Source: Bacteroidota bacterium (GTDB taxonomy: Bacteria; Bacteroidota; Bacteroidia; B-17B0; Aurantibacillaceae). Taken from it: 64,000 nucleotides of DNA. A program made the position numbers and the translations under genes. The notes beneath the pieces are model-generated. The model was not told where the DNA came from, made no database searches, and saw only the letters and a program-made list of their open reading frames with translations. Every line of letters begins with the position of its first letter. Position 1 is the stretch's first letter. The stretch is from contig CANFTW010000003.1 of the NCBI GenBank assembly GCA_947450025.1, positions 1 to 64,000 of the forward strand, given 5' to 3'. Shown piece by piece: positions 20,511 to 25,179 of this stretch.

Positions 20511-21977
20511 CTACATCATTTTAAAATCACCGGCTTCTAATAAATCTTCTTCACTTAACATACTAATGTCAATTAAATCAGATTTATATTGAGAACGAAT
20601 AGCTTTAATCCAGCGTTTTGCCCTTTCTGATAACTGAAAATCATCCGACATTAATCGGCCACGTAATACCATGATTCCTAAATCGGCTCCTTCATATAAA
20701 TAATCGTCCTTTTGTGTAATTTGTAAAAAGAACGCCTCGTTATCATCTTTCACAGATTGACGATGCGCATCCATTTTTTTGAATTGAATGTTGCCATTTT
20801 TTTTCATTTCCCATATCCCAGACTCAGGAACTTTTGTAGCTAATTCTAATGATTTTTTGGTATGCTTTATAACTAATTGACTCCAGCTATCCATGTTTTC
20901 AGCTTTCATCCATCGCTCTACTAATTCATTAACGTTTATGGTGTATGGCACATCCATCCATTCTAATAAGTGAAATAAAAACATGGGTACATCCATCATC
21001 CCAAATTTCGAATGATTGGTTAACGAACTTACTCCAGATACACGTGGATTTAATTCTCCCAAATAAATTTCACCATTATCTTTATCAATTAAAAAATCTA
21101 ATTCAAAATATCCTTTGTATCCCTCTTTGCGTAATTGATCTCCAAATTTTTGTGTGTATGATTTTGCTTTTTCTCTAATATCTGCATTAAAGGCATTACC
21201 AAAAATTTCGTTACCACACCAACCACCTTTGTAAGGTGTTAACTCCTTAAAACCTACTAACTCAGTCATTAATGGCGCTACTAAAGTTCCGTGTTGTGTC
21301 ACGCATCCTTCAATAGCAGTGCCATAGCAGTTAATGCGTTTCATGATTTTCACTTCTTTTTCTTTCGTTATTTCTTCAGCATAAGTATTAAACTCATCTT
21401 CGTTTGAAATGAAAAAGGTTGTGTGTCCCGAATCACCAAATGGTGTTTGTACCACTAAGTTTTCTCCTAAATTTTCAGATAATTTTCTTAGATGCTTGTA
21501 ATCTGTTACTGGTGATAGTACATTTGGAACACAAGCTACTCCCGCTTTTTCAGCTATACGATTGGTGTTTACTTTGTTGTCTAAAAAGGTGCGCAATTCT
21601 GCTGATGGAAAACACACATCCAACCCAATTGCTTTTGCTAGTTGTTCCGTTTTCTCATCAAACATTAAGAACAAAGCTTTACCCATTTCCCCATTAACAG
21701 CATTTGACTTGATGTAATGAATGACTTCTGGATGTTGTAACAAATAATTGTTAATGTCTTCAATGCTAGTAAATTCATCATGTGGCATTTCTTCTTTTGG
21801 AGAAAATAAATTTGGATGTTGCCCATCATAAGAATCAATATGACTGATGTATTTAAAATTATTTACCCATTCGTCTATGCCTAATAAATTAAAATTGGTA
21901 GCACTAATAAAGTAAATAGGAGTTGCGTTAGATTTAAAAAAATCTTTTATGTCAGTTATGCTATTTAGAGTTTTCAT
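20511..21977 (-). CDS. ATP-grasp ligase-like protein (biotin-carboxylase annotated family)
   Basis: 488 residues. ATP-grasp fold: pre-ATP region with NTNRIAEKAGVACVPNVLSP, glycine/His loop QTPFGDSGHTTFFI (about 180), KIMKRINCYGTAIEG strand, and metal-binding FELDFLIDKDNGEIYLGELNPRVSG (about 290-315) with Glu and Asn ligands. It forms a carboxyl phosphate intermediate and joins it to a nucleophile; the real substrates are not known. It lies 23 bp downstream of the Orn/Lys/Arg decarboxylase gene, an association I recall from other Bacteroidota. True biotin carboxylase is unlikely because no biotin carrier gene is near. Confidence 0.8.
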   Translation of the reverse strand: MKTLNSITDIKDFFKSNATPIYFISATNFNLLGIDEWVNNFKYISHIDSYDGQHPNLFSPKEEMPHDEFTSIEDINNYLLQHPEVIHYIKSNAVNGEMGKALFLMFDEKTEQLAKAIGLDVCFPSAELRTFLDNKVNTNRIAEKAGVACVPNVLSPVTDYKHLRKLSENLGENLVVQTPFGDSGHTTFFISNEDEFNTYAEEITKEKEVKIMKRINCYGTAIEGCVTQHGTLVAPLMTELVGFKELTPYKGGWCGNEIFGNAFNADIREKAKSYTQKFGDQLRKEGYKGYFELDFLIDKDNGEIYLGELNPRVSGVSSLTNHSKFGMMDVPMFLFHLLEWMDVPYTINVNELVERWMKAENMDSWSQLVIKHTKKSLELATKVPESGIWEMKKNGNIQFKKMDAHRQSVKDDNEAFFLQITQKDDYLYEGADLGIMVLRGRLMSDDFQLSERAKRWIKAIRSQYKSDLIDISMLSEEDLLEAGDFKMM

Positions 21978-22000: not shown

Positions 22001-24745
22001 TTATTTTTTTACTTTCACTTTAGCTTCAGGTATTTGCATGGCATGCATAGCACCCATTGCTGAAATAGTATTTTTACGATTCAATGCTTCAGGTGTAAAT
22101 ACTTTTAAACCTAATTCAGCTCTATAACCGTGTATTTCTTTTACATCCAAAGCAATCATAAATCGTAATATTTCTTCGCTAACAACTTGTCCGGGTACTA
22201 AAATTGGGAATCCCGGAGGATATGGTATTACAAAGGATGTCGAAACTAATTCTTTGTTATCTAATAATTCTTTTAAGCAATCTTTTAATAAAATGTATTC
22301 ACATAATTCTTCCTCATAAGCTAAGAAAAATGCTTCGCGAATGTTCCCGCCTGGTACGCCAGGAGATGCTTGAAAAGAGCGATGAAAATAGCTAAAATCA
22401 GGAAGAGGTGGGACATCTTTAATTAAAGAGTTAATGTGTTTTTTAGAAATTTCTTCTTCGCGTTTATTTAATGAACGTCTGCTTTCATCTAACTCATCTG
22501 CAATTTGTAAAAGTGCATTTATCAAAAAAGTAACACTTCCACGAGTTGTTCCAATATTAGTCATAAACAACACGGTATTGCGAGATGTTTTATTGACTTG
22601 AATATTAAAACGATCCATTAGGTAGGAGTTTTTAAAAGCGTCTCCTGTAATCCCAGCCATACCTACTGAAAGCGTTACCTTGGTTGGATCTAAAACAAAT
22701 TCATCTTTTTCCCAAGCTTCTTCCATTCTATCCCAACCATCTTTCTCAGTATAATATTCACTTAAACCACATTGACGAAATTCAGAAGGAATGATATCTT
22801 TTACATTTAACACATGAAAGAATTTACTCAATTTTGGATGGTCTTGAATTTTTGATCGCAACACCATCGCCATTTCAATGCTTTTTTCTACTAACTCATA
22901 CCCTTCTAACTCCACTTGTCGGCGGCCAATATCCAGTGAAGCTAAAATTTGATAATTAGCCGAAGTCGTTGTATGTGTCATATATGCTTCTTGAAAATTA
23001 TCAGCTACACGACGATTAAATTCTTCGTCCCAAATTTGAATCATAGAACCTTGACGAAAACAAGACAATGTTTTATGAGTGCTTTGGGTTGAGTATACTC
23101 TTATTTTTACTTTATCAGGATCGGGCATTGTAGGTATATCGCCTGGTTTTAAAGTTGCCACATAAGCTTTGTATTTTACTCTATACTCTTCGCTATGATA
23201 TTTATGAAATAATTTTTGTGCTACATACATTCCAGTGCGCTGTTTGTATGTGTATGTAAAGCTTGCAAATGCAAACCAAGCTTCGTCCCATAAAAAAACC
23301 ATATCAGGTTTAATAGCGAGTACTTCTTCCATCACACGTTCAACATTATATACTAAACCATCAAAAGTGCAGTTAGTAAGCAATAACATTTTTACTTTAT
23401 CTAAACGTCCCGCTTTACTTAAAGCAATTAATCGTTCCTTAATAATGCGCAAAGGTACAGCTCCATACATTGAATATTCTTCAATAGGATAAGAATCCAA
23501 GTATGCCGGAAATGCGCCAGCTAATACCATTCCGTAATGATGCGACTTATGACAATCTCTATCAATTAATACTACGTCTCCTGGTTTGATTAAAGCTTGT
23601 TGTACAATTTTATTAGCCGTACTGGTTCCGTTAGTCACATAAAAGGTATGTTCGGCTCCAAATGCTTTAGCTGCTTTTTCTTGAGCTCTTTTTAAAGGGC
23701 CTTTTGGTTGTAATAAAGAATCCAATCCTCCATTCGTTGCTGATGTTTCTGCCAAGAATACATTACGTCCATAAAAATCACCAAAATCAGAAATCCAACG
23801 AGATTTAAAAACGGAGTTTCCTCTTGAAATTGGCATCGCATGAAACACACTTGTTGGTTTTTTACTATACTCTGTTAACGCCGAATAAAAAGGTGCGTCA
23901 TAGCGCTCATTGATGCCACTTATAATTGTTAGGTGTAGTTCTTGAACATCTTCCATACGATAAAAAATACGACGGAAAGATTTTAACGTCGTGTCTTCTA
24001 AATGTGTTAATGATGTATCAGTGATATAATAAATATCTAACTCAGGACGAAACTGATGAATGTATTTACCTAATAAAGGTCCTAAATCTCCATCAGATAT
24101 ATTAGTAATATCAATTTTTAGAACATTTTGAATAAAAGGCTTGATATGTTTAGTAATGTTAGTTGATAAATGCAAAGGAGCGTATCTAATGCAGGCAGCT
24201 TGAATATTATAGTTAAAAAATAAACAAATTAAAGCATCTTGAAATGAACGTTGAACAACGACATCATACACTAAATGATCATTTGGTGTTACTAAATCTT
24301 TGAATTTATTTTTTAAAATCTCTTCTTCTTTTGAAGATAAATCTTCAACATACAATACTTCAAAATAATTTCGTTTTGGTCCGCTAGATAATTTTTCTTT
24401 ATTACCATCAACACTGTAACTACCTTTTAATTTTTCTCCTAAAACCTCAGGATGGGTTCGGTAATTATCACTTACTAATAGATATACTATTTCAGCTACT
24501 TGATTACTGACAGCTTTTAACTCACGTTTCTCAACAGATTTAATAATCTTACGAACCAAAGGCGCGCCTGGTAAAGAAAAATATTGTTCAATGCTCAATA
24601 AATTTTGAAGAACATCGTTCATGTCATTTAAACTTGAATCAAATGAAGGCTCTTGTTGTATTCGTGTAATATGATTACTTTTTTCTTTTAGCTCGTTCCA
24701 TAAATCAATTCTTAATTGATTGATGTTATAATGTTTTGAGTTCAT
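22001..24745 (-). CDS. PLP-dependent Orn/Lys/Arg decarboxylase, long form
   Basis: 914 residues, longer than the roughly 715-755 of classic inducible Arg/Lys/Orn decarboxylases. The additional length is N-terminal (about 1-250, with a receiver-like wing region). The fold-type I core has FYVTNGTSTANKIVQ (phosphate-binding), FLWDEAWFAF (Asp to the pyridine nitrogen) and STQSTHKTLSCFRQGS with Lys558 as PLP lysine. The C-terminal domain has YPPGFPILVPGQ. It makes a polyamine or diamine; the substrate amino acid is not readable. It is co-transcribed with the ATP-grasp gene. Confidence 0.88.
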   Translation of the reverse strand: MNSKHYNINQLRIDLWNELKEKSNHITRIQQEPSFDSSLNDMNDVLQNLLSIEQYFSLPGAPLVRKIIKSVEKRELKAVSNQVAEIVYLLVSDNYRTHPEVLGEKLKGSYSVDGNKEKLSSGPKRNYFEVLYVEDLSSKEEEILKNKFKDLVTPNDHLVYDVVVQRSFQDALICLFFNYNIQAACIRYAPLHLSTNITKHIKPFIQNVLKIDITNISDGDLGPLLGKYIHQFRPELDIYYITDTSLTHLEDTTLKSFRRIFYRMEDVQELHLTIISGINERYDAPFYSALTEYSKKPTSVFHAMPISRGNSVFKSRWISDFGDFYGRNVFLAETSATNGGLDSLLQPKGPLKRAQEKAAKAFGAEHTFYVTNGTSTANKIVQQALIKPGDVVLIDRDCHKSHHYGMVLAGAFPAYLDSYPIEEYSMYGAVPLRIIKERLIALSKAGRLDKVKMLLLTNCTFDGLVYNVERVMEEVLAIKPDMVFLWDEAWFAFASFTYTYKQRTGMYVAQKLFHKYHSEEYRVKYKAYVATLKPGDIPTMPDPDKVKIRVYSTQSTHKTLSCFRQGSMIQIWDEEFNRRVADNFQEAYMTHTTTSANYQILASLDIGRRQVELEGYELVEKSIEMAMVLRSKIQDHPKLSKFFHVLNVKDIIPSEFRQCGLSEYYTEKDGWDRMEEAWEKDEFVLDPTKVTLSVGMAGITGDAFKNSYLMDRFNIQVNKTSRNTVLFMTNIGTTRGSVTFLINALLQIADELDESRRSLNKREEEISKKHINSLIKDVPPLPDFSYFHRSFQASPGVPGGNIREAFFLAYEEELCEYILLKDCLKELLDNKELVSTSFVIPYPPGFPILVPGQVVSEEILRFMIALDVKEIHGYRAELGLKVFTPEALNRKNTISAMGAMHAMQIPEAKVKVKK

Positions 24746-24751
24746 AGTACT

Positions 24752-24787
24752 AATTTAATAATTTGACAATTCGAGAATTGGTTAATG
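24752..24787. repeat. AATTnnnn octamer array, left flank of four-helix-bundle gene
   Basis: AATT recurs with exact 8-bp spacing at 24752, 24760, 24768 and 24776, then AATG at 24784. The last unit (AATTGGTTAATG) overlaps the TAA stop of the four-helix-bundle gene. An equivalent array with the same phase lies on the other side of that gene, exactly 392 bp away. Confidence 0.75.
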
Positions 24788-25135
24788 TGTAGTCTTTGAT
24801 GATGCTATAATCTTAGATAAGATTTTAATGATCTCTTCTAGTTTTTTCTGAAGTTCTTCGCAGTTTGGATATGATTTTGAAAGATGACATAATAATAACC
24901 AATATTCTGTTTCATCAGCTTCTTTAGCTGCTATTTTCATTTTATGAATAAAGTCTTGTTTGCTTTCTGCGTTTTGAGCTTCTCTGATATTTGCTCCTAC
25001 TGATGTTCCAGATTTTAATAATTGATTTGCAACAATAAACTTTCTTTTAGATTCTAATAACTCAGTATACTCAATTATTAGTAAAGCGAATTCAAGCGTT
25101 TTTTCTACAATGATATTTGGTTTATTATTCTGCAT
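24782..25135 (-). CDS. four-helix-bundle protein (23S rRNA intervening-sequence family)
   Basis: 117 residues, nearly all alpha-helical. LEFALLIIEYTELLESKRKF, LLKSGTSVGANIREAQNAES and FIHKMKIAAKEADETEYWLL are the signature helices of the S23/IVP four-helix-bundle family. This family was first known from insertions in 23S rRNA genes and is related to diversity-retroelement Avd proteins. Here it stands alone between metabolic genes, on the same strand as both neighbours, and is framed on both sides by AATTnnnn octamer arrays. That suggests a mobile or recently inserted cassette. Molecular function is not known; nucleic-acid binding is plausible. Confidence 0.88.
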   Translation of the reverse strand: MQNNKPNIIVEKTLEFALLIIEYTELLESKRKFIVANQLLKSGTSVGANIREAQNAESKQDFIHKMKIAAKEADETEYWLLLCHLSKSYPNCEELQKKLEEIIKILSKIIASSKTTH

Positions 25136-25143
25136 AGTATTTT

Positions 25144-25179
25144 AATTTTCAAATTAACTAATTTTCAAATTGATTAATG
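25144..25179. repeat. AATTnnnn octamer array, right flank of four-helix-bundle gene
   Basis: AATT at 25144, 25152, 25160 and 25168 with exact 8-bp spacing, then AATG at 25176. Within it TAATTTTCAAATTAAC and TAATTTTCAAATTGAT form a 16-bp tandem repeat (25143-25174). The terminal AATTGATTAATG overlaps the stop of the VOC gene, just as AATTGGTTAATG does for the neighbouring stop on the left. Confidence 0.75.

Follow-up and report, generated by a model that had tools for sequence, protein, structure and literature searches.

An S23/IVP gene framed by inverted, phased octamer arrays: a putative slowly mobile module of operon junctions in Bacteroidota

INTRODUCTION

The S23/IVP protein family is familiar from insertions into rRNA genes. 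Its members have been recognized since the 1990s but, to our knowledge, have no known function, and the way in which intervening sequences enter 23S rRNA is unsolved. In a 64-kb stretch of a Bacteroidota genome (contig CANFTW010000003.1, positions 1 to 64,000; here, the window), a gene of this family lies between two protein-coding genes rather than in a 23S rRNA helix and is framed by two arrays of AATTnnnn octamers. Do these arrays belong to the site or to the gene, and how are they related to the protein? A sequence-only reading regarded the gene as a mobile cassette and the arrays as its recognition or insertion sites.

Two published observations bear on the question. The 23S rRNA intervening sequence (IVS) of Coxiella comprises an S23p ORF, terminal inverted repeats and a heptamer tandem upstream of the ORF and is excised by RNase III (PMC4990558), and MacGregor (2015) described unexplained intergenic tandem heptamers, TAACTGA, just upstream of start codons (PMC4679880).

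RESULTS

All ten AATT or AATG tetramers of the sequence-only reading lie where it had placed them, in each array with exact 8-bp spacing: AATT at 24752, 24760, 24768 and 24776, followed by AATG at 24784, and AATT at 25144, 25152, 25160 and 25168, followed by AATG at 25176. These are the only 8-bp-phased AATT runs of at least three units in the window, each having four; first-order Markov simulation predicted 0.34 runs of at least three and 0.013 of at least four per window, against two of at least four observed, and no AATT run of four was found in the window at other periods from 5 to 15. The two arrays are real, not chance. The 392-bp offset between them (49 x 8) is also exact, but their in-phase relation is a one-in-eight coincidence that carries no information; the offset is set by gene length. 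As claimed, both arrays end over stop codons, those of the VOC-like gene (25174-25176) and the IVP gene (24782-24784). Octamer pairs elsewhere in the window, at 22946, 41172 and 47321 (the first and last inside genes), are weak two-unit matches near chance level; five such matches, including the window array, were seen where 1.7 were expected.

Table 1. Coordinates of the module and of neighboring genes in the window
Feature	Position	Strand	Remarks
S23/IVP four-helix-bundle gene, 117 aa, intact	24782..25135	-	PF05635, 82.5 bits; TIGR02436, 97.6 bits
5' arm (gene sense), VOC stop to IVP start	25136..25179	-	Octamers AATTTGAA AATTAGTT AATTTGAA AATTAAAA; matches RATKWGNN x3
3' arm, 5'-arm unit inverted, IVP stop to decarboxylase start	24746..24787	-	Read on the + strand: AATTTAAT AATTTGAC AATTCGAG AATTGGTT AATG
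Upstream host gene, VOC/FosG-like, 145 aa	25174..25611	-	Weak FosG match, below model cut-off
Downstream host gene, Orn/Lys/Arg decarboxylase-like, 914 aa	22001..24745	-	PF01276
Next gene of operon, biotin carboxylase-like	20511..21977	-	NF005096, over cut-off

Assignment of the intervening gene to the S23/IVP family was correct, both matches exceeding the curated cut-offs (33.8 bits for PF05635 and 24 bits for TIGR02436), and the gene had no PHROG or PADLOC match indicative of phage or defence identity. The AF2 model of its product (pLDDT 91) was matched by Foldseek to the solved S23 relatives 2RLD and 2GSC, both five-chain structures, and also resembles Avd (4DWL, 8UB7). The cluster runs from the VOC-like gene through the IVP and decarboxylase genes to the biotin carboxylase-like gene, all four on the minus strand. 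Together with both arrays, the IVP gene spans ∼430 bp of the VOC-decarboxylase junction, and IVP is the only protein encoded there; unlike a DNA transposon or insertion sequence, the element encodes no transposase.

VOC and decarboxylase orthologues adjoin in nine relatives (decarboxylase identity, 81 to 96%), none of which has an intact IVP gene between them. Six junctions are clean and have no octamer array (G004, 11 nt; G007, 4 nt; G010, 12 nt; G002, 17 nt; G020, 10 nt; and G035, 37 nt), one array persists in G017, both ends and the first IVP codons remain in G001 together with a different inserted palindrome, and G014 has another palindromic repeat. A single array at an empty site, proposed earlier as a check, is therefore seen in G017 and in none of the six clean relatives. 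Because these six junctions, of 4 to 37 nt, lack arrays, the arrays are ends of an inserted module and not pre-existing targets. The clean, remnant and full junctions of congeners bear out the mobile-cassette part of the sequence-only reading, in that the cassette is gained or lost as a unit to which the arrays belong; parsimony requires three changes at this site and fits gain or loss alike. The palindromes in G001 (L008) and G014 (L010) represent two other families, CCCGCTGATTACGCAG... and TTCTCGCGG...CTGCGAGAA, and this site either attracts hairpins of several families or tolerates them.

The same pattern recurs at other sites. Between HisA and HisF, two genomes have a 425-nt insert where the genes of four close relatives overlap, and G001 has a 91-nt internal deletion with both ends kept; here HisA gains a C-terminal tail and a stop codon from the arm. 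At NuoD-NuoE and HGD-HPPD, the sites of the two other modules of the window genome, relatives variously have a full module, an arm-only hairpin or neither. No target-site duplication was evident in comparison with the empty sites, which are too diverged for a firm reading. Two copies that are 85% identical occupy neighboring junctions of one operon (L039), their homology beginning at the 5' arm and ending after the 3' arm, so that arms are common and flanks are not; two further candidate relocated pairs had no clean boundaries. Near-identical elements nearly always share a junction, and relocation is therefore rare.

The window arrays look direct because AATT is palindromic. In the family as a whole, a single directional unit builds both arrays, one being the inverse of the other; in octamer elements the 5' arm consists of RATKWGNN and the 3' arm of its inverse. 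The window pair has an ungapped identity of 24/36 either way and local scores of 19 (direct) and 25 (inverted), and its arms are weakly complementary (−14.2; rank 0.36). For the family, the inverted local score was 27.6 versus 15.5, and own-flank duplexes reached −23.9 kcal/mol versus −14.0 kcal/mol for swapped partners (0 of 10,000 permutations); a direct-repeat reading was weaker than the inverted one. Own-pair complementarity was slightly raised in control genes with short spacers too (17.9 versus 13.9; 24 genes), and the effect is therefore judged by its size. Element arms repeat at a lag of 7, 8 or 14, and period 7 or 8 was found in 45% of IVP spacers versus 10% of control spacers. A pentamer reading five units is just suggestive, as units per arm, although most often 4 to 5, vary between 1 and 12. 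Stop codons abound in the sense unit, and each 7- or 8-bp step moves them to another reading frame, with the result that all three frames are often blocked by the arm: stops in every frame were present in 51% of the first 30-nt stretches of sense arms, compared with 18% when the 3' arm was read in the sense direction. Three-frame closure is a plausible explanation of the fixed orientation of the arm.

The family sample comprised 94 IVP genes from 60 related genomes, at 61 distinct junctions. Both neighbors were co-directional for 78 of 87 IVP genes, compared with 30/58 window genes and 26/39 other genes of the loci. Several recurrent junctions lie in what, from the sequences of the neighbors, we take to be conserved operons (his, nuo, pyruvate dehydrogenase, CoA transferase and MurE-MraY type), and modules of two distant protein clades share the MurE-MraY-type junction. 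In the protein tree, the clade of the window protein has 22 members (SH-aLRT, 84). All 14 of its members scored as period 7 or 8 have period 8, versus 2 of 44 outside it (Fisher, 1e-11), the other 42 having period 7; unit length changes three times on the tree, whereas 200 shuffles needed at least 10 changes. As the clade had been picked after the labels were seen, the association was retested on another 79 genes from across Bacteroidota, which had been identified solely by sequence: period 8 held in 56 of 57 scored, 68 of 71 were co-directional, and inverted arms were again element specific.

At different junctions, arm similarity followed protein similarity (rho, 0.198; 0 of 1,000 permutations), whereas similarity of DNA 200 nt away did not (rho, 0.005). 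The arms belong to the module. The claim that the arrays are pre-existing insertion sites is unsupported on two counts, since clean empty junctions are array free and arms are similar when proteins are similar, even at unrelated junctions; that they are recognition sites is indirectly supported, as unit length tracks protein clade. The sequence-only reading had counted homologues without phased AATT against itself; these do exist, since in many homologues the 7- or 8-bp unit is a different one.

Arrays also occur without the gene. Genomes contain 0 to 352 matches to RATKWGNN x3 and 0 to 7 to the reversed pattern, and at least four matches were found in 18 of 19 genomes with a clade-8 IVP gene versus 10 of 41 without one (P = 4e-7, kinship ignored). 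G001, G017 and G037 depart from this pattern in having arrays with no clade-8 gene detected; the arrays of G037, with 352 matches, are GATKAGNN-like. Among 58 sampled gene-less loci, 44 of the 53 scorable for neighbors lay between co-directional genes, where the upstream stop codon marks the start of the sense array (median, −1.5 nt; 28/30 within 15 nt), and the inverted partner was present at 18 of the 58.

Some individual loci of G029 are recorded here. A gene-less octamer hairpin (L319:1231-1308) precedes a gene resembling pyruvate dehydrogenase E2, a junction that holds heptamer-class IVP modules in other genomes; octamer hairpins flank two tRNA-like genes ∼400 bp apart (L305:1229-1653); and at L022/L321 an IVP gene has a complete arm-arm hairpin, not a single arm, on each side.

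DISCUSSION

We propose that the IVP gene and its two phased arrays constitute one compact module of ∼430 bp, settled between two operon genes, with a probability of roughly 60% for the reading in which this module is slowly mobile and its S23/IVP protein recognises the phased units. The 5' arm would be a sense tandem of RATKWGNN starting from the upstream stop codon and the 3' arm inverted RATKWGNN, ending just before the next start. Inheritance would be mostly vertical, with rare changes of place, and gene-less derivatives (single arms and arm-arm hairpins) would be present at many further junctions between operon genes. The octamer unit, and in other clades the heptamer, is most likely what the S23/IVP protein recognises, a prediction drawn from the match between protein clade and period; recognition may help the module to copy into, or persist in, transcribed junctions. 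Arrays that travel with the gene, match the protein lineage and are scattered in gene-less form suggest a type of bacterial selfish element not described before.

An mRNA version of the 23S rRNA IVS would account for part of the pattern: the arms would pair in the transcript and loop out the IVP message, RNase III would cut, and the insertion would be neutral for the operon. This analogy gains from the element-specific inverted arms, the strong co-direction with host genes and the same plan in Coxiella (PMC4990558), yet sense-strand G.U pairs among arm mismatches are not in excess (138 versus 177, slightly opposite), the window arms pair poorly and several relatives keep only one array, and we consider it unlikely. 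A selected mRNA stem was rejected on the same negative wobble asymmetry test. A reverse transcriptase or Y1 (REP/RAYT-type) transposase residing in the genome and spreading hairpins and modules in trans, with IVP as passenger or accessory, is more doubtful still: the dispersed hairpin-like repeats resemble REPINs and the fold resembles Avd, the partner of a reverse transcriptase, but the window genome has neither an RVT_1 nor a Y1_Tnp match, both enzymes are missing from six genomes with IVP genes, and array counts correlate with the clade-8 gene (rho, 0.67) and not with reverse transcriptase (0.005) or Y1 (0.19; P = 0.14). As wobble pairs are not enriched and these enzymes are absent and do not track the arrays, recognition of the phased unit by the IVP protein is favored.

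Equally improbable is that IVP is an ordinary operon gene beside local regulatory or translation-insulating repeats that arose by slippage. The all-frame stops of the sense arm (51% versus 18%) and the intergenic heptamer repeats reported near start codons (PMC4679880) would fit, but empty sites, arms shared between different sites, clade-specific unit length and the association of gene with gene-less arrays would all be left unexplained. Least credible of all is the earlier proposal that the arrays were pre-existing hotspots that received a mobile gene cassette; gene-less arrays at other junctions agree with it, whereas the array-free empty junctions already largely refute it, at unrelated sites similar proteins have similar arms, and the L039 pair has common arms in different flanks.

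The proposed module shares features with several known systems. Like the 23S rRNA IVSs of Leptospira and Coxiella, it has an S23/IVP ORF, a length of ∼430 nt and complementary ends, evident for the family and weak in the window element; sense orientation within a transcribed host gene and, in Coxiella, heptamer tandems beside the ORF are further likenesses (PMC4990558). In contrast to those IVSs, it is hosted by a protein-coding operon junction, has phased octamer arrays as arms and has dispersed copies that lack the gene. It resembles REP/REPIN-RAYT systems in having few protein genes, many dispersed short intergenic hairpins and a repeat class tied to protein lineage, but Y1 (PF01797) is unmatched in the window genome and in five other clade-8 genomes, the protein is a four-helix bundle with no known catalytic site, and the repeat is a tandem 7- or 8-bp unit. 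Avd of diversity-generating retroelements has the same four-helix-bundle fold, but a reverse transcriptase and a template/variable repeat are absent here. Some Bacteroidetes sites of the TAACTGA heptamers are likewise absent in close relatives, but no protein partner, inverted arm or element structure was proposed for them (PMC4679880). The literature searched was open access, with subscription journals mostly outside, and contained no account linking S23/IVP to operon junctions or phased arms; novelty is therefore provisional.

As a wider and tentative view, possible rather than probable, S23/IVP rings may read sequence on behalf of a new class of selfish elements that spreads phased 7- and 8-bp arrays through operon junctions without a known transposase or reverse transcriptase, and 23S rRNA intervening sequences would be the particular instance in which such an element entered rRNA operons. 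The finding ties the S23/IVP protein to a definite nucleic acid signature, the clade-specific repeat period, and the many pairs of empty and occupied sites make questions of binding and mobility testable. In these genomes, the usual home of S23/IVP is in protein operons, and the proposed module would explain where a large group of Bacteroidota intergenic hairpins came from.
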